DNA of 43,242 nt from the IMG/VR virus record IMGVR_UViG_3300009168_000065, positions 1 through 43,242 of that record; one strand, written 5' to 3'. A program made the translations under genes and the position numbers. This DNA is from a virus. Shown here one piece after another: positions 6,563 to 40,089 of this stretch (the first letter of the stretch is position 1; the number at the start of each line of letters is the position of its first letter). The notes below the pieces were generated by a model, which made no database searches, was not told where the DNA came from, and worked only from the letters and a program-made list of their open reading frames with translations.

Positions 6563-8525
6563 TAATTATAAGCGGTTTTACGTAGACACAGGCATTTTTG
6601 ATCTTAGTGGTGCTAATTATACAGGTTACGTAGAAGTATTGAGCGGTATACCTTATGTTGCTGCGCTAGAAATTTATTTTAATAAATGCTATACCTCAAG
6701 TGTTTCAACAAGACAGCAACTAGAAAAAAGATTTACCTATAAAACAGACGTATTTTGTTCTGACTTGTTTTATGATAGAGTTATAAGTGATGAGACATCT
6801 CTACCTTATACGCTAGATGATGTATTGTTTGATACAAATGATTTTTTAAATTACGAGCTTTATAAAGATAAGATTAAAAAGTTAAATGAAAATATACTTT
6901 ATACTTATTCGAGATGTTTTGTAGTTGATAACAATCTACCAGTTAGTGTTGGTAACGTTAAGTTCGCTTGCGCGTCTGCTATTTCTGATACTAGGTTGAG
7001 TGTGTTAACAGGCTTTAGAGATATTCCAACTTTCTCAAGTAATGTTAACTTTTTGAATTTAGGTAACGTAAAAGGGTTTGTTGCTGTAAATTATTTACAA
7101 GATGATAACACATCGGTTATTTTTGCACATACTGATACTAATTTCATATCTATTTCATGTACTGAAACTTCAACTAGTATTATTGAGATATCACCTTTCT
7201 ATGAGACAGATACTACCCAGAATAGATTAAAGTTTGCATCGATAGGTGATATAGCGTGTGTAGGTAATTATCTATATATTACAGATACTGGTAATAATAC
7301 TGTTGTAAAGTACGATATAAGTGGATATATTAATAACGATTCCGTTCTTTCAAATAAGCGCACTATAGTTGAGATATTAGGTGGTAAGGGTACTGTTGAT
7401 GATAAGTTATCTTTTAACGGCCCGACGATTATAACAGCTTCTAGTAACTATATTGCTGTATATGATTCTAATAATCGTATTATTAAGGTGTATGATTTAG
7501 ATTTTAATTTTGTTACAAGAATAAGTGGTATTAATTTACGGTCTGAACAACTACTTACAATAGAATATAATAAAATTAATAATTTACTATATATTATAAC
7601 AAAAGTAGCTGATACAGTTAAGTTATATATAATTAATGATTCTTTTATAACTTCTGCAACATATAATCTAGATATTAACTTAAAAGAAAATGAGTTAATT
7701 AATAATATCGATTTCTCGTATAATGATAGTAATTACTTTTATATATGTACTAATTTTAATATATATAAATGTCTTGTTAACAGACCGGAATATATCGTAG
7801 GTAAGTATAGTAGTCAGTCTCTATATACTAATGTTGCTAATGTTTCTTCTACTGATGGTAGTACAACAGGTATTAATAACATATGGAATTATGTTGATAT
7901 TCCGTTTGAGCAGGCCGACTTTACATGGAATACAGGTACTGTTGTAAATACTACAATAACACAATCAGTTTCTGGTACAGTCTCTACATTATATAACGAT
8001 ACATATAAAGGTTTTAGAATTACACCACAAAGAACTAACTTCGATAAAGTCTTTTTGTTTACAGCGGGTAGAATATATTATTTTAAAGAGGAGAATAAAT
8101 TAAACTCTGTGCTTAAATCGGATAATTATGAAAATTTTGGTCCTAATAATTTTACACTCAGTAAGGATGAGTATATACAGTGTAGTTCGCTTAATAAGGA
8201 GTTATATAAGGTAGCATACGATACATTAAATATAAAGAATAATATTATAGGTAGATTTACAGGTACATATGATAGTAACAACGTCTTTACCTATAGTAGG
8301 TATAATTATAATATTGACTTTTCAGTTATTAATGTTAAGACCTTAGATAATTTGTATATTCATGAAAATGAAAAAAATATCTTAGGAGTTTTTAACAGAT
8401 CTATTACTAGATTATATAATTTACAGTTAGATTTAATAAATTTAGTAAAGCCGGATAAGGGTAATGGTATTGTACCCGTTTTTACTGTATGCAATGATAG
8501 TAATAATGTAGTAATAATAGAATAA
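6549..8525 (+). CDS. Virion protein with NHL-type beta-propeller repeats
   Basis: The 658-residue product has a central region (about residues 235-430) with NHL-like blades: GNYLYITDTGNNTVVKYD, then SNYIAVYDSNNRIIKVYDLD, then further blades with the pattern hydrophobic-Tyr-Ile plus D-x-N turns. NHL and related propellers are found in phage tail and baseplate proteins that bind glycans or protein partners. The start codon lies inside the end of the preceding gene, so the two are probably co-translated and may act in one complex. There is no promoter box of its own and no signal peptide. The exact virion position is not determinable from sequence. Confidence 0.7.
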   Translation: MIQYSNYKRFYVDTGIFDLSGANYTGYVEVLSGIPYVAALEIYFNKCYTSSVSTRQQLEKRFTYKTDVFCSDLFYDRVISDETSLPYTLDDVLFDTNDFLNYELYKDKIKKLNENILYTYSRCFVVDNNLPVSVGNVKFACASAISDTRLSVLTGFRDIPTFSSNVNFLNLGNVKGFVAVNYLQDDNTSVIFAHTDTNFISISCTETSTSIIEISPFYETDTTQNRLKFASIGDIACVGNYLYITDTGNNTVVKYDISGYINNDSVLSNKRTIVEILGGKGTVDDKLSFNGPTIITASSNYIAVYDSNNRIIKVYDLDFNFVTRISGINLRSEQLLTIEYNKINNLLYIITKVADTVKLYIINDSFITSATYNLDINLKENELINNIDFSYNDSNYFYICTNFNIYKCLVNRPEYIVGKYSSQSLYTNVANVSSTDGSTTGINNIWNYVDIPFEQADFTWNTGTVVNTTITQSVSGTVSTLYNDTYKGFRITPQRTNFDKVFLFTAGRIYYFKEENKLNSVLKSDNYENFGPNNFTLSKDEYIQCSSLNKELYKVAYDTLNIKNNIIGRFTGTYDSNNVFTYSRYNYNIDFSVINVKTLDNLYIHENEKNILGVFNRSITRLYNLQLDLINLVKPDKGNGIVPVFTVCNDSNNVVIIE

Positions 8526-8528
8526 GTT

Positions 8529-8536
8529 GATAAATA
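8529..8536 (+). promoter_or_regulatory. Late promoter box (GATAAATA)
   Basis: GATAAATA, seven bases before the ATG at 8544 and immediately after the stop codon of the propeller gene. Confidence 0.65.
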
Positions 8537-8543
8537 TTAAAAG

Positions 8544-9362
8544 ATGTCAAATAATTCTCTAAGCAATACAAAAATTAATATAACTTATACTAGTTTATTA
8601 CATGCTAACAGTGTACCTTTGCCTGTAACAAGTCAAGAGGATATTTATGATGGCGCTGGTAATAAATCGTCCCTTAAATTAGGTAGAGCTTGTAACGGCG
8701 CAACTGTTTGCGGTACCTTTACGTGTGATACATTATCAGCTGGTAATCTTTCGACTCCAGGTAACTTAACAATCTCAAACGCTTCACCGTATGTTAATTT
8801 GATAGAGACAGATACAAGTAGATCATGGTTTATTGTTGCAAATAACTCTTCCTTTGATATACGAGCAGATTCAATTACTGGGCTTAGACCTTTCTCAATC
8901 GCATACTCAACCGGTAATATTACACTTAACAATAGTTTAAGTGTTGCAGGTGCGCTATCGGGCGCATCATTAACTACCACAGGAAATGCTATTGCAGCTA
9001 CACCGACATTATCGAATCATCTTACTACAAAGGATTACGTCGATAATACGATTACGTTAAATGAATTTATTCCAGTTGCTAAAGCGTATTGCACAATTTC
9101 GGGGGGAATATTAACTGTACAAGCGAGTGCTGGTTTTACAAGTATTACACGTACCTCTGGTGGTAGATATACCGCAACATTTTCATCTGTACGGAGCAAT
9201 GCTAACTATATTGTATTGTTGACAAGAGAGAATACTGTTAGAGAAGGTGAAATTACAGTTGCACCTGGATCTAAAACAGTAAACGGTTTTAATATTCAAA
9301 ATTCAAATGACGACTCATCTGCTAACGATCCTTACGGTTTTCATGTGGTTGTATTTAAATAA
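8544..9362 (+). CDS. Tail fibre-like protein
   Basis: The 272-residue product is Ser/Thr/Asn/Gly-rich with low-complexity beta repeats (for example LSAGNLSTPGNLTISNASPY) and the motif HLTTKDYVDNTI around residue 155-166. The minus-strand fibre at 1913-3196 carries the same motif as HATTKEYVDGRF. The C-terminal 100 residues form a compact beta region that could be a receptor-binding or trimerisation tip. It has its own late promoter box. It sits between the propeller protein and two further fibre genes, so it probably belongs to the adhesion apparatus. Confidence 0.7.
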   Translation: MSNNSLSNTKINITYTSLLHANSVPLPVTSQEDIYDGAGNKSSLKLGRACNGATVCGTFTCDTLSAGNLSTPGNLTISNASPYVNLIETDTSRSWFIVANNSSFDIRADSITGLRPFSIAYSTGNITLNNSLSVAGALSGASLTTTGNAIAATPTLSNHLTTKDYVDNTITLNEFIPVAKAYCTISGGILTVQASAGFTSITRTSGGRYTATFSSVRSNANYIVLLTRENTVREGEITVAPGSKTVNGFNIQNSNDDSSANDPYGFHVVVFK

Positions 9363-22313: not shown

Positions 22314-23669
22314 TCAACTTCCAAACGATTGCAGCATAGTATAAGAGCTATCTGAAGTTTCATTAGCACTTTCTTCAGCTTGTGTAATTGTTAAGGTAGA
22401 GTAATCAATTCTCATAGCTTGCGTATGTCCTCTAGGTCCGTATCGATTTTTCATCATACCTAAACGTATAATGCTCAATTCTCTATCTTCTTCGTTTTGA
22501 TAAATAGACACAATAACGTCTGCAGTAGCTGCTAGACCTACAGATTCAGATATAGTAGTCAAGTCAGGGTTATTAGAACTAAAACCAGATCGATTTAATT
22601 GAGTTGCAGATATAATAGGACAGTTAAACATATATGTCATAGCGCGTACTTGCTCAGTTACGTTCTTAATACGTTCATATGAATTTGTACCTACAGTAGA
22701 ATGTAAAAGGTTAAGATAGTCTAACACAATTGCATCAATCTTAATACCTTGATCGACGATCTTTTTAATAAATGCTTTTAATTGGTTAGGTGTAATAGTA
22801 CTAGGAGGAAACTCTTTAATAAAGATACTACCTTTACCTTCTTTTTCTTGCTCCTTTAAAGCCTGTCTAAGCGAAGGAGCGTTAATTGCTAGTTCTTTTA
22901 ATGGAATCTTACTAACATTAGTACATATACGTCGTGCGTATAATAGTTCGGACATCTCGAGAGTAATTAGTAGTACATTCTTACCTTGATTAGCGATATT
23001 TGTAGCAACGTTACCTAAAAATATAGATTTACCAATATTAGTTTCACCGGCAAATACATATAACGCACGACCATTCTCTTGGAAGCCACCATTCAACGCA
23101 TCATCAAGCCACGGCCAGTTACTCGGTATAGCTTTTTGAATACTAGTTAAGTCTTCAACAATAAGATCTACATCTCTATATAAATCAAGCCCTCTATCTG
23201 TTACAAGATTTATATTACAGGAAGTTTCAAACTTATTAAGAATTTCTGAAGTATCAATAGAGCCTTTAGCAATATCACTAGCAACTTCAAGCATAGTATG
23301 ATATACAGATTTTTCCTTAATGAATCTCTCTGTGTTATCATACAGCTCACCTTTATCGATATTTTTATCTATATCTTTGAATGATTCAACAAGCTGTTTA
23401 AACGACTCTCTATACTCATCTGTAGTTAAGTATGCTTTAACTTCAGTAATAGTCGGTAACTTCTCACGCTTACCATAAAAGTCATTAATAATCTCGAAAA
23501 TTTTAGCAATATTCTTTGATTTAAAATACTTAGGCTTAACGTAATCAACAATTGAAGCTAAATACGTTGAATCAGTTAAAGAACGGTAACAAACTATACG
23601 TTCAAAATAGTCATTATCAATAGTCATTTGCGTATTTGGAGTTGAATAATTTTGTATAGACCTAGACAC
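22314..23669 (-). CDS. 41: Replicative DNA helicase (DnaB/T4 gp41-like)
   Basis: The hexameric 5'-3' helicase drives fork unwinding and partners with the gp61-like primase. The N-terminal domain (to about residue 150) is DnaB-like. The RecA-type motor has Walker A GETNIGKS (residues 208-215), LLITLEMSELLYARRI (motif 1a), Walker B IDAIVLDYLNLL and the DnaB motif ISATQLNRSGF, ending in a MMKNRYGPRG-type motif 4. The length of 451 is near T4 gp41 (475). The frame begins with GTG at 23669; an internal ATG at 23627 would remove 14 residues. A homing endonuclease gene starts 19 bases away, divergently. Confidence 0.9.
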   Translation of the reverse strand: MSRSIQNYSTPNTQMTIDNDYFERIVCYRSLTDSTYLASIVDYVKPKYFKSKNIAKIFEIINDFYGKREKLPTITEVKAYLTTDEYRESFKQLVESFKDIDKNIDKGELYDNTERFIKEKSVYHTMLEVASDIAKGSIDTSEILNKFETSCNINLVTDRGLDLYRDVDLIVEDLTSIQKAIPSNWPWLDDALNGGFQENGRALYVFAGETNIGKSIFLGNVATNIANQGKNVLLITLEMSELLYARRICTNVSKIPLKELAINAPSLRQALKEQEKEGKGSIFIKEFPPSTITPNQLKAFIKKIVDQGIKIDAIVLDYLNLLHSTVGTNSYERIKNVTEQVRAMTYMFNCPIISATQLNRSGFSSNNPDLTTISESVGLAATADVIVSIYQNEEDRELSIIRLGMMKNRYGPRGHTQAMRIDYSTLTITQAEESANETSDSSYTMLQSFGS

Positions 23670-23675
23670 TTTGAA

Positions 23676-23682
23676 TTAAATA
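23676..23682 (+). promoter_or_regulatory. Late promoter box (TTAAATA) for the endonuclease gene
   Basis: TTAAATA with five bases to the ATG at 23688. It supports this start over an in-frame TTG at 23652 lying inside the helicase gene. Confidence 0.5.
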
Positions 23683-23687
23683 TTAGA

Positions 23688-24431
23688 ATGAAAGATGATG
23701 TGTTTATAATTGAATATTATATTAAAGAAGGTAAAACGCAACTCGAAATAGCTAAAATATTAGAGGTAACTTCAAGTACGATTATTAACAGGCTTCGTAA
23801 AAAGTATGTGAGAGAAAGCTTTCAACAAATTAGAAAAGCTCTTACGGGTAATAGATTAACTATAAACTCACAACAAGTTAGATCTGCTATATCTAGACGT
23901 ACAAAGCGTAAAAAAATAATAAACAAAGATATTCTTATATCTCTAATAAAAAAGGATTTATATCAGGAGGATATTTGTAAAATCTTAAAGGTAACAGAAC
24001 CAACATTAAATAATTTTATAAAGGCTAATTATAATTTTACTTTTAAGTATTTACGAGAGCAAATTACAGGTAGAAAAGTTACAAAGAATACAATAAAAAA
24101 ACTTCAAAATAATATCTTTTATACAACAACTAGTTTAAAAGGTATTGATATAATAGGTAAGCTTTATTTATTAAAAGTTAGCAGTGAGGATGAAGTTTTT
24201 TATAAAATTGGTGTTACAAAGACAAGTATAAATACTCGTTATAAAAATAGTTCACTACATAAAAATTATAAAATTAATATATTAGAAGAAGTAGAGGGTA
24301 ATTTATATGATATGTTTCAAGTTGAGCAATTACTTAAAAAATTATATAGTTTATATAAATACATACCTAAATATCGATTTGATGGGTGTACAGAATGCTT
24401 TTCTATTTTTATACCTTTAAAAATAATTTAA
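23688..24431 (+). CDS. Putative GIY-YIG-type homing endonuclease with HTH repeats
   Basis: The 247-residue product begins with two helix-turn-helix segments (YYIKEGKTQLEIAKILEVTS and LIKKDLYQEDICKILKVTEP) suited to DNA recognition. It ends with a nuclease domain of the GIY-YIG / T5orf172 type: GKLYLLKV, VFYKIGVTKTSINTRYKNSS, and a late acidic VEQLLKKLY and GCTECFSI segment. It lies alone on the plus strand next to the helicase gene, the usual behaviour of a homing gene. The start at ATG 23688 is backed by a late box. Confidence 0.68.
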   Translation: MKDDVFIIEYYIKEGKTQLEIAKILEVTSSTIINRLRKKYVRESFQQIRKALTGNRLTINSQQVRSAISRRTKRKKIINKDILISLIKKDLYQEDICKILKVTEPTLNNFIKANYNFTFKYLREQITGRKVTKNTIKKLQNNIFYTTTSLKGIDIIGKLYLLKVSSEDEVFYKIGVTKTSINTRYKNSSLHKNYKINILEEVEGNLYDMFQVEQLLKKLYSLYKYIPKYRFDGCTECFSIFIPLKII

Positions 24432-24453: not shown

Positions 24454-25140
24454 CTAAACGGTAAGAATTTTGCCCTTATATTTTTCGTATTTGTTTAAGA
24501 ACCACTTTTGACCCTCTAAAAATTCAGGTGTGAATTCCTTTAATCCTGGAGAAGCATGCGTAATCATAATATCAGATACACCGCATTTAAAGCCAGCTAG
24601 TGTAGCATCTAAACAATATGAAAGATCGTAAAAGTGGAAGTCAGCTGGGTTTGTTTCATCGAATCGAATTTGTTCAAACACACGACGATGGATAGCTAAG
24701 AACACACCATCGAGTAATACAACTCGTTGAGGGTAAGGTCCAAAGGCTGTCATACTTTTTTGAGTTTCATTACCATGAGCTACAGCTCCATGAAGTTTAC
24801 CGCCTTGAAACCCACCACCCATTAGATGCCACAACGCTGGCTCTTGTAATTTACATTCTGTTGTGCCTGCTACACCGATTATATCGAACTCTGTACGTAG
24901 AATATCGGGTAGCTTGTATGCTACATCAGATTCAATAATGACATCATCATGGCATAATACGATATAGTCTTTTTTCTCTTTAATAGCTAAGTCAATAGCT
25001 TTATTATAGAGTACAGGTAGAGGTTGTGTGTTATTTTCTTTAAAAATAAACTTATTATATGCAGAGCTATTTTTAAATAGTAATGTATCTTTACGGCTTC
25101 CCTTTGTAGCAGAGAAATATAGTGTTTTGTTTATTGACAT
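24454..25140 (-). CDS. Glycosyltransferase (GT-A type)
   Basis: The 228-residue protein has the features of small GT-A glycosyltransferases: IVLCHDDVIIES with a DDV metal/nucleotide-sugar motif (Asp65, Asp66), an acceptor-region loop GGGFQGGKLHGAV, LLDGVFLAIHRRVFE and FHFYDLSYCLDATLAGFKCG, ending with THASPG. It starts three bases after the amidotransferase gene, so the two are coupled. The acceptor could be modified phage DNA, a virion protein or a host polysaccharide; operon context favours a base or nucleotide modification route but does not prove it. Confidence 0.78.
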   Translation of the reverse strand: MSINKTLYFSATKGSRKDTLLFKNSSAYNKFIFKENNTQPLPVLYNKAIDLAIKEKKDYIVLCHDDVIIESDVAYKLPDILRTEFDIIGVAGTTECKLQEPALWHLMGGGFQGGKLHGAVAHGNETQKSMTAFGPYPQRVVLLDGVFLAIHRRVFEQIRFDETNPADFHFYDLSYCLDATLAGFKCGVSDIMITHASPGLKEFTPEFLEGQKWFLNKYEKYKGKILTV

Positions 25141-25143
25141 AAA

Positions 25144-25812
25144 TTATAAAAATAAAAATGGTGATTTTGTTTTAAAAGTTTCAACAGCAGTCCATGTTTT
25201 GTAGTTATTACTAAGCATCATTATAACTCCCTCTGGTAATAGCGTAAAACCTTCACCACCAAGAGTTGATACATCTCCATTATCATTATAGTGTAATACG
25301 GATCCCTGCCTTGCAATATAAACATCATTAGAATCTGTATCAATTATACCTAAAGCAAATGTACCTTCAAGTAAATTAAGTACTTTTTTAATTGTTACTG
25401 GTGCAGAGCATTCCCCTACACATTCTTCTGTAAAATGCTGCAATAAACTTGGTATAACTGATGTATCAACTTCATTAACATCCCAAGAAACATATTTACT
25501 TTTAAGATCAGCATCATTGGTTAGTACACCATTATGTATTACAGCCCACGATAGAGATTCAAAGGGATGAGATGTTTCATATGACCATTTTCTCGCTGCT
25601 GAGGTAGGTGCTTGTACATGACCGATATAATAATCACATCTTACATCTAATTGTACATTATCAAAATCAAGAGTTCCTTGTTTTTTAATAGTTTGTTGCT
25701 GATTACCATCATATAAACATACGATACCCGTGGAAAAATTACCTCTTGTTAGGTTGCCTTGATAAAGCACCTCAAATTTAGAGATATTATTGCTCATTAA
25801 TATTGCACACAT
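25144..25812 (-). CDS. Class II glutamine amidotransferase (Ntn hydrolase)
   Basis: The 222-residue protein starts MCAI, placing Cys2 as the N-terminal nucleophile after Met removal, as in GlmS, AsnB and PurF. VIHNGVLTN (HNG at 93-95) gives the oxyanion-hole residues, and VNEVDTSVIPSLL (Asp116) the glutamine-amine ligand. The loop that normally reads H-x-R-x-(S/A)-T reads GHVQAPTSA, with Gln67 at the usual Arg. No synthase domain is fused, so ammonia must be passed to a partner. It is tightly coupled to the HhH gene before and the glycosyltransferase after; a QueC-like gene lies 1.5 kb upstream in transcription order. Confidence 0.85.
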   Translation of the reverse strand: MCAILMSNNISKFEVLYQGNLTRGNFSTGIVCLYDGNQQQTIKKQGTLDFDNVQLDVRCDYYIGHVQAPTSAARKWSYETSHPFESLSWAVIHNGVLTNDADLKSKYVSWDVNEVDTSVIPSLLQHFTEECVGECSAPVTIKKVLNLLEGTFALGIIDTDSNDVYIARQGSVLHYNDNGDVSTLGGEGFTLLPEGVIMMLSNNYKTWTAVETFKTKSPFLFL

Positions 25813-25813
25813 A

Positions 25814-26134
25814 TTATCTTAGATATTCTCTTCTATCTTTTGGAACTCTCCAGAAAAAATCAATTTGTCCAGTAACTGTATTCCTTGCAAGTGAGTTTAA
25901 TGGGTATTCTATACCATCAGGCATCAAATACCAGTTCTTCTTTTCTTTTTTCTCTCTTTCTATACCTAATTTTTTTAGAGTATACGAACCTAATCCTTTT
26001 ACCTTAAAAAGATCACTTTTAGATCTAAACGGTTGCATTTCTACAATACGTTCTGCTACTCTCTTACCTATACCAGGTATATTACATATACCGGTATAAG
26101 ACATTTCGTTAAAATCTTCCCAATTTAATTGCAT
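25814..26134 (-). CDS. Helix-hairpin-helix protein
   Basis: The 106-residue protein has a ComEA-type (HhH)2 domain at about residues 15-56: ICNIPGIGKRVAERIVEMQP, then FRSKSDLFKVKGLGSYTLKKL. Such domains bind DNA backbone without sequence preference. The C-terminal 50 residues (NWYLMPDGIEYPLNSLARNT) are not recognised. It is the first gene of the HhH-amidotransferase-glycosyltransferase set, with one base between its stop and the next start. It could bring a modifying enzyme to DNA. Confidence 0.8.
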   Translation of the reverse strand: MQLNWEDFNEMSYTGICNIPGIGKRVAERIVEMQPFRSKSDLFKVKGLGSYTLKKLGIEREKKEKKNWYLMPDGIEYPLNSLARNTVTGQIDFFWRVPKDRREYLR

Positions 26135-26138
26135 CTTA

Positions 26139-26146
26139 TATAAATA
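26139..26146 (+). promoter_or_regulatory. Late promoter box (TATAAATA)
   Basis: A perfect consensus, six bases before ATG 26153, in an 18-base gap between divergent genes. Confidence 0.7.
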
Positions 26147-26152
26147 GTATAT

Positions 26153-27274
26153 ATGAGTTCCTTTAATAATCTACTTTCCAGATTAACATTTCTTAGTGAA
26201 GCTGCTATTTCTCCTATGGAGAGAATTTTACCTGGGTTTCAAACACAAGCAAGAGGTATAGCTGCATCTAAAGGTGCATCTTCAGGTACTCGTGAAGGTA
26301 GATTGGCTATGTTAAACATTTTATATGATCTCGATATAATTGATGATGCAATAATTAAAATGTTTAAGAATGATCCTTCTGTAAGCCGTATGGTAGAGTA
26401 TTTCGAGCAAAACGGTATTGCAAAACAAATGAAATCCAGAAAGAGTGATATTGAGGATTATATTGCTAATAAATTAGAAGATAAAATTAGCTTTACAACG
26501 GGTAATAGGACAGATGCTGCGCAGCAAAGAATGGAAATGAACAAGCTTAATGCTGAGCTTAAAGCTGCTAAAAAGATCGCACGTATTGAACGTAAAAAAG
26601 ATACAGCTGCTGCACTTAGCTCAATTAGTCAGGTAGTTGATAATTACGATGATCTTGTATCTTCTATTAAAGGTTCATATAGTAAAGATTATATGATTGA
26701 AATTGTTGTAGATAAAGGTAGCGATTTAGGTGATATAAATCGTATCATTAATTACCTTAAGCAATTCGTTAAAGAGTCTGATATTGAATTAGAAGGTAAA
26801 AGTATTGATGCTACATTTGCTGCAGATAGTAAGTTAGGAAGAATTATTAGTAAACTTGGAGCTGAGAAAGTAGAATCACAAATTTCAAACGATCTTGAAG
26901 CTTTTGGTGGTGCTGGTGTTGTTATACACACTCCCGATATTCAAAATAAACCTAATATGGTAGGTGATCTTGGACGAGAAGAAGAAGAAGGTTATGAAGA
27001 TGCAGAGGATATGGAAACTGATTCTGCATTTGATAACCTTGCGGAGGAGTATAAGGGTACTAAATTAGCTCCTGAATTAATGAATGCACAGACAAAAGCT
27101 GTAGAAGCTGCGATCGGTGTAACACCAATAAAAGAAAGTTCTGTATTAAACTATATGTCTGAGCAAAGAGTTTATTCAACTCCAAAGCCTATTGTAGAGT
27201 CTCTAAGCTTTAGAGAGAAATTTAAACCTACTACTTCAAAGCAACTAGCTGAATTAAGAAGTTACGGAATGTAA
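26153..27274 (+). CDS. Predicted virion-internal protein with capsid-targeting-like N-terminus
   Basis: This 373-residue helical, charged protein begins MSSFNNLLSRLTFLSEA, an amphipathic start followed by L-S-E (Glu16), the form of a T4 prohead-protease site before Ala. Acidic segments (REEEEGYEDAEDMETDS) and a Lys-rich middle suggest a soluble core or internal protein. Two more L/M/I-x-E sites lie near the end (YMSEQ, IVESL). It is a lone plus-strand late gene in the replication block, and its end overlaps the QueC-like gene by 13 bases. The virion role is inferred. Confidence 0.6.
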   Translation: MSSFNNLLSRLTFLSEAAISPMERILPGFQTQARGIAASKGASSGTREGRLAMLNILYDLDIIDDAIIKMFKNDPSVSRMVEYFEQNGIAKQMKSRKSDIEDYIANKLEDKISFTTGNRTDAAQQRMEMNKLNAELKAAKKIARIERKKDTAAALSSISQVVDNYDDLVSSIKGSYSKDYMIEIVVDKGSDLGDINRIINYLKQFVKESDIELEGKSIDATFAADSKLGRIISKLGAEKVESQISNDLEAFGGAGVVIHTPDIQNKPNMVGDLGREEEEGYEDAEDMETDSAFDNLAEEYKGTKLAPELMNAQTKAVEAAIGVTPIKESSVLNYMSEQRVYSTPKPIVESLSFREKFKPTTSKQLAELRSYGM

Positions 27275-28011
27275 TTACAGTATTTTAGATCATATATACT
27301 GTCAAGCTTTTCCTGTTGCAGATATTTTATAGGGTCACGGTAACCAGCATCAATAAACCCCTGAATACGTAAACTACTTGAAGGAGTTGTAGCGTCTGCG
27401 AGGCCGTCCTCACGGTTACTATAGCATGTCCACGTGTCTCCGAAGTTTACTCCTAATTCTACACCTTGTCTAACGATACTAGCCTTCGACAGGGAGAGCA
27501 GCGGTGCTCCCACGCGGATCCTATGTTGTCTGTTAAGTGATACTAGTTCATTTATAGATGAAACGAAGAGATCGCTTCCGTCCCAATATCCAGCTAGAGA
27601 ATCAACTTGCGCTGCACCATACCATACTTCGTCTGCTTTTAAACTCTCTGCATAAGCACAACAGATTGTAATAAACATCTGATTTCTAAATGGTACATAA
27701 GATACAGGTTGAGCATCACCAGCAATCTTACTAATATCTGGATTATCAATATCTAAATTAGTTAAGGAAGATGTAGGTGATATATCTTTTAGGTATTTTA
27801 CATCTAATACTTTATTAGTTACTTTAATATTAGGATATTTTTTCTTAATATTTTCTAATTGTATATTAACGCACTTTAATTCTCTATTATGTCTTTGACC
27901 GTAGTCAAAAGATACAGTATGAATCTCGGTATAACCTTGATCCGCTGCCATATATAATAAGACAGTTGAGTCAGCTCCTCCAGAAAACGCTAAAACTAAT
28001 TTTTTACTCAT
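27262..28011 (-). CDS. queC: QueC-like 7-cyano-7-deazaguanine synthase family protein, zinc site degenerate
   Basis: The 249-residue protein carries the ATP-pyrophosphatase loop AFSGGADST (residues 8-16), SFDYGQRHNREL, the QueC substrate region SYVPFRNQMF and GAAQVDSLAGYWDGS, then PLLSLSKASIVRQGVELGV and DTWTCY. QueC enzymes make preQ0 from CDG. They normally bind zinc with four Cys: one in TW(S/T)CY and three in a following C-x-x-C-x-x-C-type cluster. Here only Cys196 remains and the cluster reads ADATTPSSSLR. ATG 28011 is used rather than ATG 28026, as the family starts at this MSKK-type position. It overlaps the uvsX stop by eight bases. Confidence 0.85.
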   Translation of the reverse strand: MSKKLVLAFSGGADSTVLLYMAADQGYTEIHTVSFDYGQRHNRELKCVNIQLENIKKKYPNIKVTNKVLDVKYLKDISPTSSLTNLDIDNPDISKIAGDAQPVSYVPFRNQMFITICCAYAESLKADEVWYGAAQVDSLAGYWDGSDLFVSSINELVSLNRQHRIRVGAPLLSLSKASIVRQGVELGVNFGDTWTCYSNREDGLADATTPSSSLRIQGFIDAGYRDPIKYLQQEKLDSIYDLKYCNYIP

Positions 28012-29119
28012 GATCTTCTGTTTCAATTACTTCTTCCGGTACTTCATGCTCATCATTAGAGTATGACCACTCTTTTTTAATTTTCAACTCAAGCTTAGGA
28101 ATAATAGTCTCTTCCCACAGTTTAGTATCCTTGCGCCAATTACGATAATATCCGAGCTTAGTTCCGTCTTCTAGTGTATATGTAGCACCGCCTTGAATAA
28201 CAATACCGTGACCTACTGCAAGGTCGAGTAGTCCGTAGTAACGATCAAGTCCGGTTGAGAAAGATAAGAACATTTCACCTTCAAGATACTGTTTAATAAA
28301 TCGATTCTTACGAGTAAGAGCTCTAATAATAATACCAGAGTAGTTTTTCTGCCCGACGGCAAGTGTAGTATCTGTAGTCTTACCACCGTCATCCTTTACA
28401 GGTTTACGAGCTAGTTGAACTGTAACAGATGGAAGATAAACGCACGCTTTACCGCCGGGCATATTTTTTTCAATCGATGGAAACATTGCTGTTGGATCGT
28501 CATAGACATGATTAGTAAGTAGAATTGTTGTTTGAGTAATTGAACCAAGATTAGTACATGTTTGTAGTAATGTTTTCATCGCTCGTGCCTTAGATCCCAT
28601 ATCTGAACTCGTACTCTCTTTACCCATACGTGAATGTTCGAGTTCAGATTGAAGGTTACCGAGAGAATCAATAGCTACAATAAATCTACCCTGTAATTTC
28701 TTTTCTTGAACCGAAGTTAAAAATTTATACAACGCGTTTCGGGTTTGTTCGATACTAACACACGGTACATATTTGACCTTAGATACATCTAAACCGAGCC
28801 TTTCAGCACCGTCGCTGTCTACAGCATTTTCTGTGTCAAAAATAACAGGAATAAGACCTTCCTTTTGTGCACTAGCAAGGATTTTTTGTACAAATAAAGA
28901 TTTACCAGTCATACTCTCACCTGCTAGCATAACTACCCTACCTTTAGGTATACCACCATATACGGATCCCGATATAATTGCATTAAGAACGTAGCTTCCC
29001 GTATCTATCCACTCTGAAACTCTACTTAGGGTATTATCACTCAGGTAAGTCGCAAATGGGTTAACTTCATCTATAGAGTCTAATGCCTTCTCAATATCCT
29101 TATTATCAAATCTACTCAT
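28004..29119 (-). CDS. uvsX: RecA/UvsX recombinase
   Basis: This strand-exchange protein acts in recombination-dependent replication. It has Walker A GESMTGKS (residues 67-74), PVIFDTENAVDSDGAERLGL, Walker B FIVAIDSLGNLQSE, and a putative L2 loop around TILLTNHVYDDPTAMFPSIE with a NMPGGKA motif. The length of 371 is near T4 UvsX (390). The C-terminus is acidic (DEHEVPEEVIETEDHE), as is common in RecA-family proteins. The QueC-like gene begins within its last codons. Confidence 0.9.
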   Translation of the reverse strand: MSRFDNKDIEKALDSIDEVNPFATYLSDNTLSRVSEWIDTGSYVLNAIISGSVYGGIPKGRVVMLAGESMTGKSLFVQKILASAQKEGLIPVIFDTENAVDSDGAERLGLDVSKVKYVPCVSIEQTRNALYKFLTSVQEKKLQGRFIVAIDSLGNLQSELEHSRMGKESTSSDMGSKARAMKTLLQTCTNLGSITQTTILLTNHVYDDPTAMFPSIEKNMPGGKACVYLPSVTVQLARKPVKDDGGKTTDTTLAVGQKNYSGIIIRALTRKNRFIKQYLEGEMFLSFSTGLDRYYGLLDLAVGHGIVIQGGATYTLEDGTKLGYYRNWRKDTKLWEETIIPKLELKIKKEWSYSNDEHEVPEEVIETEDHE

Positions 29120-29127
29120 ATCTATAT

Positions 29128-29133
29128 ATTATA
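29128..29133 (-). promoter_or_regulatory. Putative -10 box for uvsX
   Basis: TATAAT on the minus strand, eight bases before the uvsX ATG, so initiation would fall within a few bases of the start codon. No strong -35 at the ideal spacing was found. Confidence 0.4.
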
Positions 29134-29153
29134 GTAATAAACATACAAATCAA

Positions 29154-29161
29154 CATAAATA
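29154..29161 (+). promoter_or_regulatory. Late promoter-like box (CATAAATA)
   Basis: It lies 44 bases before ATG 29206, which would give a leader of about 39 bases. It is the exception to the short spacing at other genes. Confidence 0.4.
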
Positions 29162-29205
29162 TAATTGTAGTTCACGGAATCCTACCTCCTAACTACTCTA
29201 TTGTT

Positions 29206-29940
29206 ATGAAATTAAACCAACAGCATGAACCTATTTATACACCCTATTGCTATTTAATAGGGTGGTCAAAGCAAAACAAATTTTATTACGGTGTTAGGTA
29301 TTCAAAAAAACTAAACTGTATTTACGAATATGGGTGTCATCCTGATGATCTATGGGTATCATATTTTACTTCTTCTAAATATGTTAAAGACTATAGATTA
29401 ATATATGGAGAACCTGATATCATACAAGTGAGACGTACTTTTAAAAATATTAAAAGTGCTTTATTATGGGAGTCTAGAGTTATTAAATATGTTAAATCTA
29501 AATCTAATAATAAATGGATAAATAAAAATTGCGGACGTGCTGTTTATTGGGATGATGAATTAAGACAAAGAGTTACAGGTAGAGTAGGTAGTCGGAAAAA
29601 TAGAACAATGCAGGAAATGCAACCAGGTTGGGTTAATCCTGTTAAAGGTAAGACATCGAAGGAGAGGTATAAAGGTGATTGGGTATGTTATAGAAAAGGA
29701 AAGTCGTTACAGGATATATGGGGAGATGACTACATAGATCCAAGAAGTATTCCATTTATTATTATATCTCAATTTCTAGGTGAGCTTAAATTTAATAATG
29801 TAACTGATTGTATAAAATTAACAGGTTTAGATGGTATTAGTATTATCAATCTTAAACGAACCGGCGTTCGTAAAATTCGTCGTCGGTCAACTACAAAACA
29901 TATTTTTACTGAAGGTGATATACTTTACTTCAAAAAATAA
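29206..29940 (+). CDS. Putative GIY-YIG-like homing endonuclease
   Basis: Residues about 11-110 (PYCYLIGWSKQNKFYYGVRY, GCHPDDLWVSYFTSSKYVK, EPDIIQVRRTFKN, LLWESRVIKYV, KWINKNCG) follow a phage endonuclease family whose CYLI and YYG stretches resemble the GIY and YIG strands, with Arg and Glu further on. The gene at 34602 shares this domain closely. The C-terminal half differs and is basic. ATG 29206 is chosen as the natural family start; the frame is open 41 codons farther but those residues overlap uvsX and are unlike a protein. The 244-residue gene lies next to uvsX, a common site for homing genes. Confidence 0.65.
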   Translation: MKLNQQHEPIYTPYCYLIGWSKQNKFYYGVRYSKKLNCIYEYGCHPDDLWVSYFTSSKYVKDYRLIYGEPDIIQVRRTFKNIKSALLWESRVIKYVKSKSNNKWINKNCGRAVYWDDELRQRVTGRVGSRKNRTMQEMQPGWVNPVKGKTSKERYKGDWVCYRKGKSLQDIWGDDYIDPRSIPFIIISQFLGELKFNNVTDCIKLTGLDGISIINLKRTGVRKIRRRSTTKHIFTEGDILYFKK

Positions 29941-33292: not shown

Positions 33293-34504
33293 TTAAGGAT
33301 TCCAACGCTTGAGATATTTCCTCTCTGGTGAGCCGTAAGGTGTATTAAGAACCTCAAGGTAGCAACCGATATTTTCATCAAGTTCTAAGAACCTGCTCGC
33401 GCCAATTTCTCTAAACCTTTCTGTATTACGGTAATATGCAGCTTTATTCTTAAGAATTGCTGCAAGTTTCTCTTCTAGCTCTTCACCTGTTTTAAACTTA
33501 AGCTCTGCTGGTGCTACTTTATACGTTTCCATATCTTGAACAAGACATGGTAGACCTAACACACACGCTTCAATAAATTTAATGTCTGACTTAGAGTTAT
33601 TAAAGCTATTATCCTGTAATGGAGCGATCATTATTTGAGCTCCAAGATTAGCAATAAATCCAGCATACCTATTGAGTGATTGCCATTGATGAAACTCGAT
33701 TTTACCACTTTCAACTAACGGTTGTAAGGGTGGTGGGAAAGATCCGACGAATACCCATTGATATTTGTCAATTGTACGTCTTACTACATCAATTACGTGT
33801 GAAAAGTCATCAATACCACCGTTTTTATTGTCTACGTCGTAGTGAGCGCCTGAACCTGTATAGAGGACTCTTGGTTTACGTTTATTTTTGTCGTAATTAT
33901 TCCAAATACGCTGTTTATTATAATGGTGACCCATCCAATGATATGGAACGAAGTTAGGTACAACAGTAATTTCTTGTTTACCAGTTCGCTTCTGGTATAA
34001 CTTACGCATATAATCACAGGTAACTGTGACTTCGTCGCACATATTAATAATTTCTATACAATTATTACGAATTTCTTCGTTATCGAAAGCAAATTTAAAT
34101 TTATTATAATCAGGAATATCTTCCCTAAATACAACATCATCAACTTCGTATACTAACTTAAATCCACTTTCTTGCTGGATAGATTTAAGATATTTAACGA
34201 ATTCTTTTTGATCATTTGATGCTTGTCGTTGTATCTTAACACACTTCACACCTTTATACCAGCGTGGGTCAAATATCATAGCGGTTTGAGATTGAGAACA
34301 ACCGTAACCTTCAGAGTTAATTAGTAATTCAGGCCATAATATACGCCAGAAACCACATCCTGAATAATCCGCTAAATAATTGACGTATCTTGGAAGTGAT
34401 AGTTCTTTAGGCTGTATATTTTGAACAGGTTGTATTACAACATTGCTTGCGAAAGGTTGAACAACAGCATTAACAAAAGGGCTGACGAATGGCTGAACGT
34501 GCAT
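33293..34504 (-). CDS. GT4-type glycosyltransferase (late)
   Basis: The 403-residue protein has the GT-B layout: an N-terminal domain with YSGCGFWRILWPELLI and LVYEVDDVVFREDIP, and a C-terminal nucleotide-sugar domain with VLYTGSGAHYDVDN, WVFVGSFPPPLQPLV and IKFIEACVLGLPCLVQDMET. The last segment carries the Glu and G-L-P motif of GT4 enzymes. The N-terminus is Val/Pro/Gln-rich (HVQPFVSPFVNAVVQPFASN). A TGTAAATA box sits seven bases before the ATG, so it is read late, unlike its replication neighbours. A late glycosyltransferase may act on virion or host surface glycans; the substrate is unknown. Confidence 0.8.
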   Translation of the reverse strand: MHVQPFVSPFVNAVVQPFASNVVIQPVQNIQPKELSLPRYVNYLADYSGCGFWRILWPELLINSEGYGCSQSQTAMIFDPRWYKGVKCVKIQRQASNDQKEFVKYLKSIQQESGFKLVYEVDDVVFREDIPDYNKFKFAFDNEEIRNNCIEIINMCDEVTVTCDYMRKLYQKRTGKQEITVVPNFVPYHWMGHHYNKQRIWNNYDKNKRKPRVLYTGSGAHYDVDNKNGGIDDFSHVIDVVRRTIDKYQWVFVGSFPPPLQPLVESGKIEFHQWQSLNRYAGFIANLGAQIMIAPLQDNSFNNSKSDIKFIEACVLGLPCLVQDMETYKVAPAELKFKTGEELEEKLAAILKNKAAYYRNTERFREIGASRFLELDENIGCYLEVLNTPYGSPERKYLKRWNP

Positions 34505-34601: not shown

Positions 34602-35363
34602 ATGAAAGAGTATATGCCTTTTTGTTACCGTCTTAAATGGTCAGCACAAAATATGAATTACTATGGTGTAAGGTATTCACGTAGTTATAAGTGCTTGTAC
34701 AAAACTGGTTGTCATTCTGATGATCTAATGACTGTATATTATACATCGTCAAAAATTGTTAAGCAGTTTATTAATATGTTTGGAATTCCTGATATTGTTC
34801 AGATACGGAAAACTTTTAAAAATGCTGAAGATGCAATTATGTGGGAATCAAAAGTATTACAAAGATTAAATGTTGTTAATAAATCTAATTGGTTGAACGC
34901 TAATGATACTAAAGCAGTTAGAAGGGGTAGTGGTTGGTGTCATAGTGATATTACAAAAGCAAAAATAAGTAGTGTAAATAAATTACAAAAACGCGTTTTA
35001 TCTGCAGATCATAAACATCGTATAAGTGTAGCTAATAAAGGTAAGGTTCTAAGTTTGTATACTAAAATAAAAATAAAAAAAGCTCAATTAGGTGTTAAAA
35101 AATCTATAAAAGCCACTATTAATAACGGACTTGCGCATCGTAAACCTATTTGTATATATTCAAAAGAACAAGATAAAATTTATGTGTGGGAGACGACAAA
35201 TAAATTTAAAGAAGAGACAGGATTTACCAATAATTACCTTAAACAAATGAAATACGGTGGTTTTACTATTAAGCGTAAGACGAAAAAAGTGCGTCATGGC
35301 TTTAATATCGGTGATACATTGTCAATAGTTAATATTCATCAAGATATTCAATCCGTCGTGTAA
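34602..35363 (+). CDS. Putative GIY-YIG-like homing endonuclease with NUMOD3-like repeats
   Basis: Residues 1-110 (FCYRLKWSAQNMNYYGVRYS, GCHSDDLMTVYYTSSKIVK, IPDIVQIRKTFKN, IMWESKVLQRL, NWLNAN) match the nuclease-like domain of the gene at 29206, so the two are paralogues. Basic segments follow (SDITKAKISSVNKLQ, KHRISVANKGKVLSLYTKIK) that look like NUMOD3-type DNA-binding modules, and then an ICIYSKEQDKIYVWETTNKF segment. It is 253 residues. Its 3' end overlaps the 3' end of gene 46 by 35 bases, as if inserted there. Confidence 0.68.
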   Translation: MKEYMPFCYRLKWSAQNMNYYGVRYSRSYKCLYKTGCHSDDLMTVYYTSSKIVKQFINMFGIPDIVQIRKTFKNAEDAIMWESKVLQRLNVVNKSNWLNANDTKAVRRGSGWCHSDITKAKISSVNKLQKRVLSADHKHRISVANKGKVLSLYTKIKIKKAQLGVKKSIKATINNGLAHRKPICIYSKEQDKIYVWETTNKFKEETGFTNNYLKQMKYGGFTIKRKTKKVRHGFNIGDTLSIVNIHQDIQSVV

Positions 35364-37140: not shown

Positions 37141-38201
37141 TATATACAATTCTTATACAACTCAAATGTGTAGTCTAACACTTCTTTTTTATTGTCTATC
37201 TCGAGTAGGTTTACAAATTCTTCAATAGCCTGTGATATATCGATACCGGATAGGTCTTTATCCTTATTATCATTACTAATTTTGTTATAGTTAATGTCAT
37301 AGTCAATAGCTAATGTTTGTGGTCGTAATTGATTAAGCTTTGTAGTTAAAATATTAAGATCTTCTTGTGCTATATTACGATCTATCTTTAATTTAACAAT
37401 ATTATTACTAAACAACTCCCGTAATTCTGTAGTTATTGTATTATATGTTATTAACTCACTAAGACTAATCTTAATATATAAGGGAGATATAGTATTTTCA
37501 GTAAAGTTATACTCAAGAGTATCAAGATCTAGTATATAATAACCTTTTTTATTATCAGCGTCACCGAAATCCATTTGGAAGGGGTTACCTACATACAGAA
37601 TAGTACCTGCTCCGAACTTTTTCTCATGTCTCATATGAAAATGACCTGAAATAATTAAGTTACTACGCTGTAAAAGGTCTTTTATACGCATACCCTCTTC
37701 ACATACCTTGTATGTATTCATTTTAAACGTCTCGATCTCAAAGTGACCGAATATAACATCACTTTTAGGTATATCGTTTATATCAGTATTCCATGGACAT
37801 AGAGTAATAGTACGATCAAAAGCAGTAAACGTTACAACACTATCGTAAATAGTAACATTATCACGCGTTTTAAAGATAGAGAGTGAGTTTACATCAGTTC
37901 TATGCTTATAAAACACGTCATGATTACCTGTTATAGCAATTAGGTTAAAGTCTTTAAAGATATCTAGTATATCTGCAGATACTTGTAGTGTATTTACAGA
38001 GATCTCACTGCGATTATGATGCCAATCACCGCAGAAAACTATATCCTTAATATTTTGACGTTTAAACTCACTTGCAAGCCAATTAGCCCATGTAATTGCT
38101 ATCTCATGCCATTGTGTGCTATTGGTATGTACGCCTAAATGTAGATCTGATACAATACCTATTCTTGGTTTATTAATCTTGATCATATTCTTCATCATCA
38201 T
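37140..38201 (-). CDS. 47: Recombination nuclease subunit (gp47/SbcD/Mre11-like)
   Basis: The metallophosphoesterase partner of gp46. Motifs are in the family order: GIVSDLHLG (residues 15-23), VFCGDWHHN (56-63), AITGNHDVF (89-97), then VIFGHFEIE, LIISGHFHMRH and YVGNPFQMDFGD. The start could be any of several clustered ATG codons at 38201-38186; the first is used. The gene overlaps the end of the gp55-like gene by 29 bases and couples to gp46 by TAATG. It is 353 residues, like T4 gp47 (339). Confidence 0.9.
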   Translation of the reverse strand: MMMKNMIKINKPRIGIVSDLHLGVHTNSTQWHEIAITWANWLASEFKRQNIKDIVFCGDWHHNRSEISVNTLQVSADILDIFKDFNLIAITGNHDVFYKHRTDVNSLSIFKTRDNVTIYDSVVTFTAFDRTITLCPWNTDINDIPKSDVIFGHFEIETFKMNTYKVCEEGMRIKDLLQRSNLIISGHFHMRHEKKFGAGTILYVGNPFQMDFGDADNKKGYYILDLDTLEYNFTENTISPLYIKISLSELITYNTITTELRELFSNNIVKLKIDRNIAQEDLNILTTKLNQLRPQTLAIDYDINYNKISNDNKDKDLSGIDISQAIEEFVNLLEIDNKKEVLDYTFELYKNCI

Positions 38202-38607
38202 CTGAAATAGGTTTTACATAAATATAAGCTCCCCCATTTTCGGGGTCGGTCATAATATCTTCGTATAACTTTTCACGATAATTCTTTTCAGCTTCGTGAT
38301 GTCTTTTCTCTTTTTTAATACGATTAATAAATGCATTGAATGCAATCGTTGTAAAGTATGAAAAAGGATTCGATTCAGTATCAAAACTATATTTTTTTCG
38401 TGATAAAGCTGAATACATCTTAATAAGAGCATCACCGATCATATCATCTTTATAAGTATAGTTAATAAAGTTACTATTATAGCTTAAACCATAAGCAATC
38501 TTTTTAACATTCTCAGCGAGATCATCAGTTAATACATCTGTATCATAAAACCTCTTTAAGGATTCCTTAAATTCTTTAGGACTTATATAATAATCAGCTT
38601 TGGACAT
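38173..38607 (-). CDS. 55: Late-transcription sigma factor (T4 gp55-like)
   Basis: The 144-residue protein resembles sigma70 region 2: DDMIGDALIKMYSALSRKKY, then FDTESNPFSYFTTIAFNAFI and NRIKKEKRHH, matching the gp55 pattern that recognises TATAAATA boxes. T4 gp55 is 185 residues. The C-terminus is acidic (SDDDEEYDQD) and does not show the hydrophobic clamp-binding end of T4 gp55. In T4 late transcription this factor works with gp33 and the gp45 clamp. A sigma70-like promoter lies just upstream and the gene is in the same block as gp46/47. Confidence 0.82.
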   Translation of the reverse strand: MSKADYYISPKEFKESLKRFYDTDVLTDDLAENVKKIAYGLSYNSNFINYTYKDDMIGDALIKMYSALSRKKYSFDTESNPFSYFTTIAFNAFINRIKKEKRHHEAEKNYREKLYEDIMTDPENGGAYIYVKPISDDDEEYDQD

Positions 38608-38613
38608 ACCCTT

Positions 38614-38641
38614 ATTGTATTTACCATATCGAAAATATCAA
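38614..38641 (-). promoter_or_regulatory. Sigma70-type promoter before gene 55
   Basis: On the minus strand TTGATA (38641-38636), 16 bases, TACAAT (38619-38614), six bases before the ATG at 38607. The -35 overlaps the end of uvsW. Confidence 0.55.
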
Positions 38642-40089
38642 CATATATCTACATTTTTTTCTGAATACGCTATTTTCTCTTTCTTATATATTTCTACTCG
38701 CTTTTCACAGTGTTTTTCACCGTAATGTAACATATCACACAAATCTATAATAATTAACCGTGTTTTATTAGAGTGTAACCGTAATCCACGACCTATAGAC
38801 TGTACAGTACGTATAAAAGACTTACCTCCTGCAGCAAATATGATGTTATGAAGGTTTTTAATGTTAACACCAGTAGAAAAAATAGCACTAATAGCGATAC
38901 ATATAACATTATCGTTACTTTCCATAATTTTTTTAATGTTTTCACGCTCTTCTACTGTTATTTCACCACGAATAAAGTATACTTGCTTAGTTTTACACGA
39001 TTTCTCTAAGATTTCATATAATATTTCACCGTGTTTGATGTGATTTACCAATATTAGTGTATTATTTGCTAACTTATGACATAATTTTGCAATTAGTTCA
39101 TTTCTTTTACTGTTTTCGTATATAAAATCTAATTCATCACGGTAAGCACTATCTGATATACGTGGAATACGTACATGTCCGTAGTTAATATTGAGAATTT
39201 TAACCTCAACATTTGTTAAGAAGTTCTCTTGCCGTAGCTCTGCACTTGTTTTTTCATACAATATAGGACCTAATTTACCAATTAGAAACCATTTGTCTTC
39301 ATTATTATCGGGTAGAGTACCAGTAAACCCATAACGATGTCTAGTTTTTATTTTTGTAATAACTTTACTGATTTCACTCGTTGATTTTATTTTATGACAC
39401 TCATCTATTACAAGCAAATCAATATATTTTACCCAATCTGATTCAGTAAAACGTGATAATAGTATACCTATATTACAAATAATAACATTAGCTGATAAAT
39501 CTGGCTTAGTTGTACCTGTCCACTTTGTAAGACTGTAAGTTACACCACAGTCGATGAACTCTTGATACGTTTGAGATACGAGAGACAAGTCGGGTACGAG
39601 CATAATGCACTTAAAAGTACTCTTATTATTACTATTACGATAATAATTCTCAATAAGTGCCGCAGTAGTAAGTGTTTTACCTGCTCCTGTACCTAGAATA
39701 CATGTACCCCAACCTAATTTTAAAGCTTTATTGAGTACATCTGCCTGATAATCTCTTAATTCTAAGTTAAAGTTAGTATAGGTCTCATTATTTGAACCTA
39801 TATGTAAGGCTTTTGTTAAATTATCAGAAATTACAACATCTAAAATAATTTGTTTTTCAATAAAATACCTTCTGATCTCCCAATAAAGACCGATATCACA
39901 AATACCTGTAGGTGTAATTACATATTTTCTCGTTGGAATCTTTACACCGCGAGCTTTAAACCGACGTTGCATAAAAGATGCATTTTTATTTTCAACACTA
40001 AAATGCTCTCTTAAGTTATCAAAGGTAAAACTATCGTCACTACGTATTAAGAGCTTATTTGTAGATTTGTTATAATCTAATTCGATCAT
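38638..40089 (-). CDS. uvsW: DNA/RNA helicase (UvsW-like, SF2)
   Basis: The 483-residue superfamily 2 helicase resembles T4 UvsW (503 residues), which unwinds branched recombination and R-loop structures. Motifs: LRDYQADVL (Q-type motif), GTGAGKT (residues 133-139, motif I), LLVIDECHKIKS (DECH, 229-232), YGFTGTLPD (motif III), VICIAISAIFSTGVNIKNLH (motif V) and VQSIGRGLRLH (motif VI). The N-terminal domain (to about residue 105) is the usual small UvsW substrate-binding part. It overlaps the UvsY-like gene stop by four bases. Confidence 0.9.
   Translation of the reverse strand: MIELDYNKSTNKLLIRSDDSFTFDNLREHFSVENKNASFMQRRFKARGVKIPTRKYVITPTGICDIGLYWEIRRYFIEKQIILDVVISDNLTKALHIGSNNETYTNFNLELRDYQADVLNKALKLGWGTCILGTGAGKTLTTAALIENYYRNSNNKSTFKCIMLVPDLSLVSQTYQEFIDCGVTYSLTKWTGTTKPDLSANVIICNIGILLSRFTESDWVKYIDLLVIDECHKIKSTSEISKVITKIKTRHRYGFTGTLPDNNEDKWFLIGKLGPILYEKTSAELRQENFLTNVEVKILNINYGHVRIPRISDSAYRDELDFIYENSKRNELIAKLCHKLANNTLILVNHIKHGEILYEILEKSCKTKQVYFIRGEITVEERENIKKIMESNDNVICIAISAIFSTGVNIKNLHNIIFAAGGKSFIRTVQSIGRGLRLHSNKTRLIIIDLCDMLHYGEKHCEKRVEIYKKEKIAYSEKNVDIC

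Follow-up and report, generated by a model that had tools for sequence, protein, structure and literature searches.

The window considered here, a 43,242-base IMG/VR virus fragment belonging to a T4-like phage, contains genes for UvsX, DNA polymerase gp43, a gp41-type helicase, a gp32-type SSB and a primase, together with gp46/47-type nuclease subunits, a UvsW-like helicase and UvsY. The original prediction for this DNA described a class II glutamine amidotransferase and a QueC-like protein, encoded as separate genes on the same strand approximately 1.5 kb apart, with a helix-hairpin-helix protein and a glycosyltransferase beside the amidotransferase. Pfam matches and motifs confirmed both of the principal assignments, and 1.45 kb was found to separate the two genes, which therefore do not display the fusion that characterizes archaeosine-type Gat-QueC; the two flanking genes were likewise found where they had been described, at distances of 1 and 3 nucleotides from gat (Table 1).

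Table 1. Features of the gat-queC locus, in coordinates of the window.
Feature	Position	Strand	Evidence and remarks
GT2-like glycosyltransferase	24454..25140	-	PF13712, E 5.3e-11; 3 nt downstream of gat
gat, stand-alone class II glutamine amidotransferase, 222 aa	25144..25812	-	Pfam, motifs, phrog_12378
Small helix-hairpin-helix (HhH) protein	25814..26134	-	HHH_3, E 9.7e-9; 1 nt upstream of gat
Inverted ORF	26153..27274	+	occupies the 1.45-kb interval separating gat from queC
queC, QueC-family ATP pyrophosphatase, 249 aa	27262..28011	-	PF06508; without zinc motif
ATTPSSSLR segment of QueC	27367..27393	-	replaces canonical CxxCxxC (zinc ligands)
uvsX recombinase	28004..29119	-	phrog_97, E 1.6e-59; upstream of queC, which it overlaps

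The immediate surroundings of the pair are themselves conserved, with the glycosyltransferase present in 14 of 16 contigs of the same clade and the HhH gene in 12. The inverted reading frame is also found in 12 of the 16, and at its position the distant gat loci instead have queC and gat directly adjacent to one another. The glycosyltransferase may act on a modified base, in which case a glycosylated deazaguanine would result, or may have an unrelated substrate. Three features of the locus had gone unmentioned in the original prediction, namely this inverted frame, the overlap between queC and uvsX, and the missing zinc cysteines of QueC.

The Gat protein scored above the respective Pfam cut-offs for both GATase_6 (32.7 bits against 27) and GATase_7 (29.1 bits against 25), and displays the motifs of class II (Ntn) amidotransferases, including a catalytic cysteine (C2) immediately after the initiator methionine, an HNG motif (H93-N94-G95) and D116. 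Its full length matches phrog_12378, the family of VPFG_00173 from phage nt-1, and the 51 cultured phage records found to contain this Gat label it, for the most part, as hypothetical. No relatives of the family were recovered from bacterial and archaeal genomes in a scan of limited sensitivity. A tblastn search with the window Gat gave unannotated matches in phage records labelled 'Listeria' and 'Staphylococcus', which were set aside because they resemble host-type amidotransferases. In PurF and GlmS, the arginine at the R73 position (within the IGHVRYPT sequence of PurF) binds the carboxylate of glutamine; the residue aligned to it in the window Gat is Gln67, which is invariant across all nine of the aligned Gats and which, as far as an alignment indicates, is a new feature of these proteins.

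The queC gene begins with an ATG at position 28011, and its product is a clear member of PF06508 (167.8 bits, cut-off 22), although its score against the NCBIfam equivalog TIGR00364 falls slightly below the cut-off (144.6 against 150.3 bits). The best structural matches to its AlphaFold model were the QueC structures 2pg3 (Pectobacterium) and 3bl5 (Bacillus subtilis), with Cap9 also among the nearest folds. The protein shares with those canonical enzymes of PF06508 cluster 1 its fold and most of its catalytic motifs, but differs from them in lacking the zinc ligands; ammonia is furthermore the substrate of canonical QueC, for which no Gat partner is known. Three of the four cysteines of the C(x)8CxxCxxC zinc motif are missing, such that only the first (within TCY) survives. 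The same is true of all 29 rows of the window clade in the tree, where the segment reads ATTPSSSLR, CDANSASSALR or similar, while the CxxC cysteines are kept by every comparator (B. subtilis, the Gat-QueC of JenK1, CP20, KVP40, nt-1, pf16 and Vibrio 2.275.O) and by four distant QueCs. The loss maps to a single change on the tree, with support of 99/94, and, by this comparison of sequences, the clade-wide disappearance of the zinc cysteines is a new feature of QueC.

The remainder of the active site appears to have been maintained. The phosphate loop SGGxDS is present as SGGADS (residues 10-15), as are YxQRHxxE (YGQRHNRE), VPFRN and the zinc-region tyrosine of TCY; the YPDC motif has become YWDG, with its tyrosine and aspartate kept, and the catalytic motifs other than the zinc site are retained across the whole of the window clade. 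Mutation of Y35, R99, Y131 or Y189, which belong to these motifs, inactivates the E. coli enzyme (PMC13329287). Their retention, along with the proximity of the model to known QueC structures, argues for a working, metal-free enzyme rather than a dead gene, and would imply that an entire phage clade can dispense with the QueC zinc site without losing the remainder of the active site; nevertheless, the motif that has gone is the hallmark of the family, and QueC activity is therefore not assured.

The fact that the zinc ligands disappeared cleanly on a single branch, and the presence of Cap9 among the nearest folds, could alternatively reflect a change in function, in which preQ0 is supplied by the host QueC and the phage protein carries out some other reaction, such as synthesis of the amide (ADG) only or a Cap9-like conjugation of a nucleobase to a protein. 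Campylobacter phages that contain QueC have been reported to carry dADG (PMC6884629), which would suit the first of those activities. This explanation is nonetheless unlikely, considering that the remaining catalytic motifs are kept clade-wide, that the QueF found in relatives (described below) requires the nitrile, that Cap9 and QatC themselves keep their zinc motifs or variants thereof (PMC13329287), and that no CBASS or Qat partner genes were seen, with a PADLOC analysis of ten proteins returning a weak QueC match only.

The association between Gat and QueC extends well beyond the window. Gat was found in 34 of 43 related viral contigs that had been fetched with QueC, and, conversely, queC lies upstream and on the same strand in 66 of 76 loci that had been fetched with Gat; in the other ten, Gat mostly lies near the end of a contig. 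In most distant lineages, as well as in KVP40, nt-1, pf16 and 6E35.1a, the start of gat is located no more than approximately 11 nucleotides from the stop of queC, and a separate gat directly behind queC is also found in KVP40-like phages, pf16-like phages and many uncultured phages, where it is mostly annotated as 'hypothetical'. Evolutionary distances for the two proteins correlate across 53 loci with r = 0.96 (against a maximum of 0.22 in 2000 permutations), a value to which shared phage ancestry contributes. The co-occurrence in relatives, the same-strand adjacency and this correlation together indicate that the pairing is not the product of chance.

The most likely role for Gat is the supply of glutamine-derived ammonia to QueC, which is also the simplest role that we infer for it; phages that encode QueC and have no known Gat partner nonetheless make preQ0, and Gat is therefore not strictly needed for that step. 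The presence of Gln67 in place of the carboxylate-binding arginine likewise counsels caution about this role. An assignment of Gat to an unrelated pathway, such as that of GlmS-type enzymes, had been named in advance as an outcome that would speak against the original prediction, and the best NCBIfam scores of Gat are indeed to GlmS-type profiles, with matches to both GlmS and PurF that fall far below the family cut-offs. Those scores, and the glycosyltransferase gene 3 nucleotides downstream, might be taken to indicate that Gat serves its neighbor in a GlmS-like amino-sugar chemistry and that the proximity of queC is a coincidence. The chance of this seems very slight: Gat possesses no sugar-isomerase domain, distant lineages have gat right after queC with no such glycosyltransferase among the annotated neighbors, and the distances of Gat and QueC are as tightly correlated as described above.

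The original prediction had also stated that folE, queD, queE and a DpdA-type transglycosylase are absent from the window, and all four were indeed found to be missing from its 43 kb; the proposed search for them elsewhere succeeded in relatives. The window is collinear with the related contigs G001 and G021 from approximately 12.5 kb to its right edge, and in G001 the counterpart of the window's final gene is followed, after approximately 4.8 kb, by folE and then by queD and queE. The absence of folE from the window is therefore what a cut contig would give, and by analogy that gene is expected approximately 4 kb beyond the edge. Long related contigs generally carry folE, queD and queE; in two contigs, a FolE2-type GTP cyclohydrolase near queD replaces FolE (G037, 37943-38992; G032, 7882-8934).

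A distal operon was observed in the three related contigs that extend to the corresponding locus. In G001 and G021 it consists, in order, of a DpdA candidate, a formyltransferase-like gene, a P-loop NTPase and queF, and in G037 of the DpdA candidate, the P-loop NTPase and queF, such that the formyltransferase is present in two of the three; the G021 QueF scored 250 bits to TIGR03138, below its cut-off of 293. A formyl derivative of dPreQ1, and enzymes named DpdA3 and DpdN, have reportedly been described.

The DpdA candidate was recognized by its position and predicted structure. Most clusters of the folE-queD-queE-queC-gat type at distant gat loci include DpdA2 or, alternatively, a conserved protein of approximately 260 residues, homologues of which are found in G001, G021, G037 and Campylobacter phage CP20. 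An AlphaFold model of the orthologue from locus L202 (pLDDT 91.8, from a 10-row alignment) was most similar to tRNA-guanine transglycosylases, which accounted for all of its best 50 PDB matches (best E 1.1e-7, TM 0.65 on the query). Counted by contig, the family was found in 14 of 51 records and DpdA2 in 8 (one by a weak match), with no overlap between the two (Fisher p 0.09), although many of the records are fragments. On the basis of its modelled fold, this small protein is thus a candidate DpdA, and the lack of any DpdA-like gene, one of the outcomes that the original prediction had named as refuting it, does not hold in these relatives.

Searches of the relatives with PF01702, the Pfam TGT profile, gave no match, but the same profile also misses nt-1, JenK1 and CP20; since it is blind even to the known DpdA2 of nt-1, its silence means little, and T4-like phages would accordingly contain a TGT-fold DpdA candidate that is invisible to a Pfam TGT search. 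DpdA2 itself was not found in the window clade by a DpdA2 profile or by profile-profile comparison of 112 gene clusters, and a scan for the DSGG motif returned chance matches only. An open reading frame at position 20139 of CP20, which relatives also have, was set aside as a head-tail adaptor. In a separate locus (L205, 4744-6018), a 424-residue reading frame that adjoins queF, queC and gat contains a DSGG motif, matches DpdA2 weakly, and perhaps represents another DpdA family.

The phage CP20 (Eucampyvirinae) contains the candidate family at 54536-55312 (E 1.6e-76) together with folE, queE and queC, while no Gat and no match to QueF were found in it. Its pathway is presumably of the DpdA3 type, and DpdA3 reportedly has complete-replacement activity.

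The TGT fold predicted for this protein, and the fact that QueF makes the normal precursor for tRNA modification, would also be compatible with a pathway that boosts queuosine precursors for the host's tRNA rather than modifying phage DNA, as has been raised for phages without DpdA (PMC6884629). That reading appears quite improbable, because 6E35.1a, which has the same cluster plus DpdA2, carries the base in its DNA (PMC12028318), and because the sequence of the candidate does not place it among the PF01702 TGTs and clusters of this kind contain it instead of DpdA2.

The nature of the final base is suggested by QueF. Since queF lies beside the transglycosylase, the predicted base is of the preQ1 type rather than deoxyarchaeosine (dG+). 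In the DNA of Vibrio phage 6E35.1a, approximately 15% of dG is present as dPreQ1 (PMC12028318), and its genome was found to contain folE, dpdA2, queF, queC and a 'hypothetical' gene that is a Gat overlapping queC by one base. The DNA of nt-1, whose cluster includes Gat and QueC and lacks QueF, contains only traces of dPreQ0, dADG and dG+ (PMC6884629). These two phages indicate that archaeosine cannot be deduced from the presence of a separate Gat alone.

Production of dG+ by the window pair, with Gat-derived ammonia amidating preQ0, would nevertheless follow a known precedent: the fused Gat-QueC of phage 9g yields dG+ (PMC6884629), and the Gat and QueC domains of the protein from its relative JenK1 correspond to the two window proteins. 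The dG+ traces in nt-1, which has the separate pair, are compatible with such an outcome; however, their level (approximately 0.02% of G) has been ascribed to an ArcS homologue (PMC6884629). In addition, each of the three relatives that extend to the distal locus has queF next to its DpdA candidate, 6E35.1a combines the pair and queF with dPreQ1, and a small search gave only a weak match between the split Gat and the 9g-type Gat domain (E 2.6e-6), all of which makes dG+ an improbable product. Thus, the part of the original prediction that proposed a 7-deazaguanine DNA modification is well supported by the FolE, QueD, QueE, QueF and DpdA-candidate genes of relatives, while the part that pointed to archaeosine is probably wrong in view of QueF and of the dPreQ1 of 6E35.1a. 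An nt-1 gene with a DUF5591 match (ORF388; L136, 21416-22096) is probably the ArcS homologue reported in PMC6884629.

The fused 9g protein is also not the nearest precedent for the window pair. The fused proteins of JenK1 and of archaea, while they likewise combine a class II amidotransferase with a QueC domain, are single polypeptides that keep the zinc cysteines and read Y-P-D where the window QueC reads Y-W-D. A closer counterpart is found in the Schizotequatrovirus/Mylasvirus cluster (KVP40, nt-1 and 6E35.1a), in which genes are arranged as folE-dpdA2-(queF)-queC-gat, folE, queD and queE are present (with queF in KVP40 and 6E35.1a), and a separate gat of the same family, phrog_12378, accompanies queC. 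Those phages differ from the window clade in that gat overlaps queC by 1 nucleotide rather than being separated from it by an inverted reading frame, and in that their QueC keeps its zinc motif and is accompanied by DpdA2, whereas the window clade has a zinc-less QueC and a different TGT-fold protein. The gat gene is unmentioned in two papers (PMC12028318 and PMC8056088), neither of which contains the word 'amidotransferase'; its sequence and position point to a separate glutaminase partner of QueC as the probable missing component of the DNA modification pathway of KVP40-like phages.

The two genes are therefore a real, conserved and largely unannotated arrangement within a known kind of pathway, of which the zinc-less QueC is a new variant. 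Because close relatives carry other genes for the placement of modified guanine in DNA, the pair probably represents a two-protein form of that DNA modification ('camouflage') pathway that had been overlooked. What the data support directly are the gene content and synteny of relatives, the co-inheritance of Gat and QueC, the TGT fold, the retained motifs and the loss of the zinc motif; from these we infer a glutaminase activity, a transfer of ammonia, DNA as the target, a product of the preQ1 type, and the presence of the distal genes in the window phage itself.

In the full model, which is reasonably well favored, Gat and QueC would form the two subunits of the nitrile-making step in a phage pathway for substituting a 7-deazaguanine for guanine in DNA. 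FolE, QueD and QueE, putatively encoded just outside of the window, would convert GTP to CDG; Gat would hydrolyze glutamine, and QueC would use the resulting ammonia and ATP to convert CDG to ADG and then to preQ0; QueF would reduce preQ0 to preQ1; and the small TGT-fold DpdA would insert preQ1 into DNA in place of guanine. The formyltransferase of some relatives may then modify the amine, and the modified base would protect the phage DNA from host restriction. A more specific proposal, advanced tentatively and with somewhat less than even confidence, is that QueC and Gat of this clade constitute a zinc-free, glutamine-dependent, two-protein nitrile synthetase, which would be a biochemically new form of QueC in which the metal site had become dispensable in a lineage that already possessed an ammonia-donating partner, and whose product would end in DNA as a preQ1-type base.

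Additional genes elsewhere in the window were noted. A glycosyltransferase-like gene at 33293-34504 (minus strand), located between gp43 and the gp46-like nuclease gene, is conserved in 13 contigs; its 403-residue product was considered as a DpdA and rejected, since its PHROG match is to a glycosyltransferase. Three endonuclease-like reading frames on the plus strand (23652-24431, 29083-29940 and 34602-35363), with T5orf172 or homing-endonuclease PHROG matches, have no counterpart in the collinear contigs G001 and G021; one of them adjoins uvsX, and all three are probably mobile genes.
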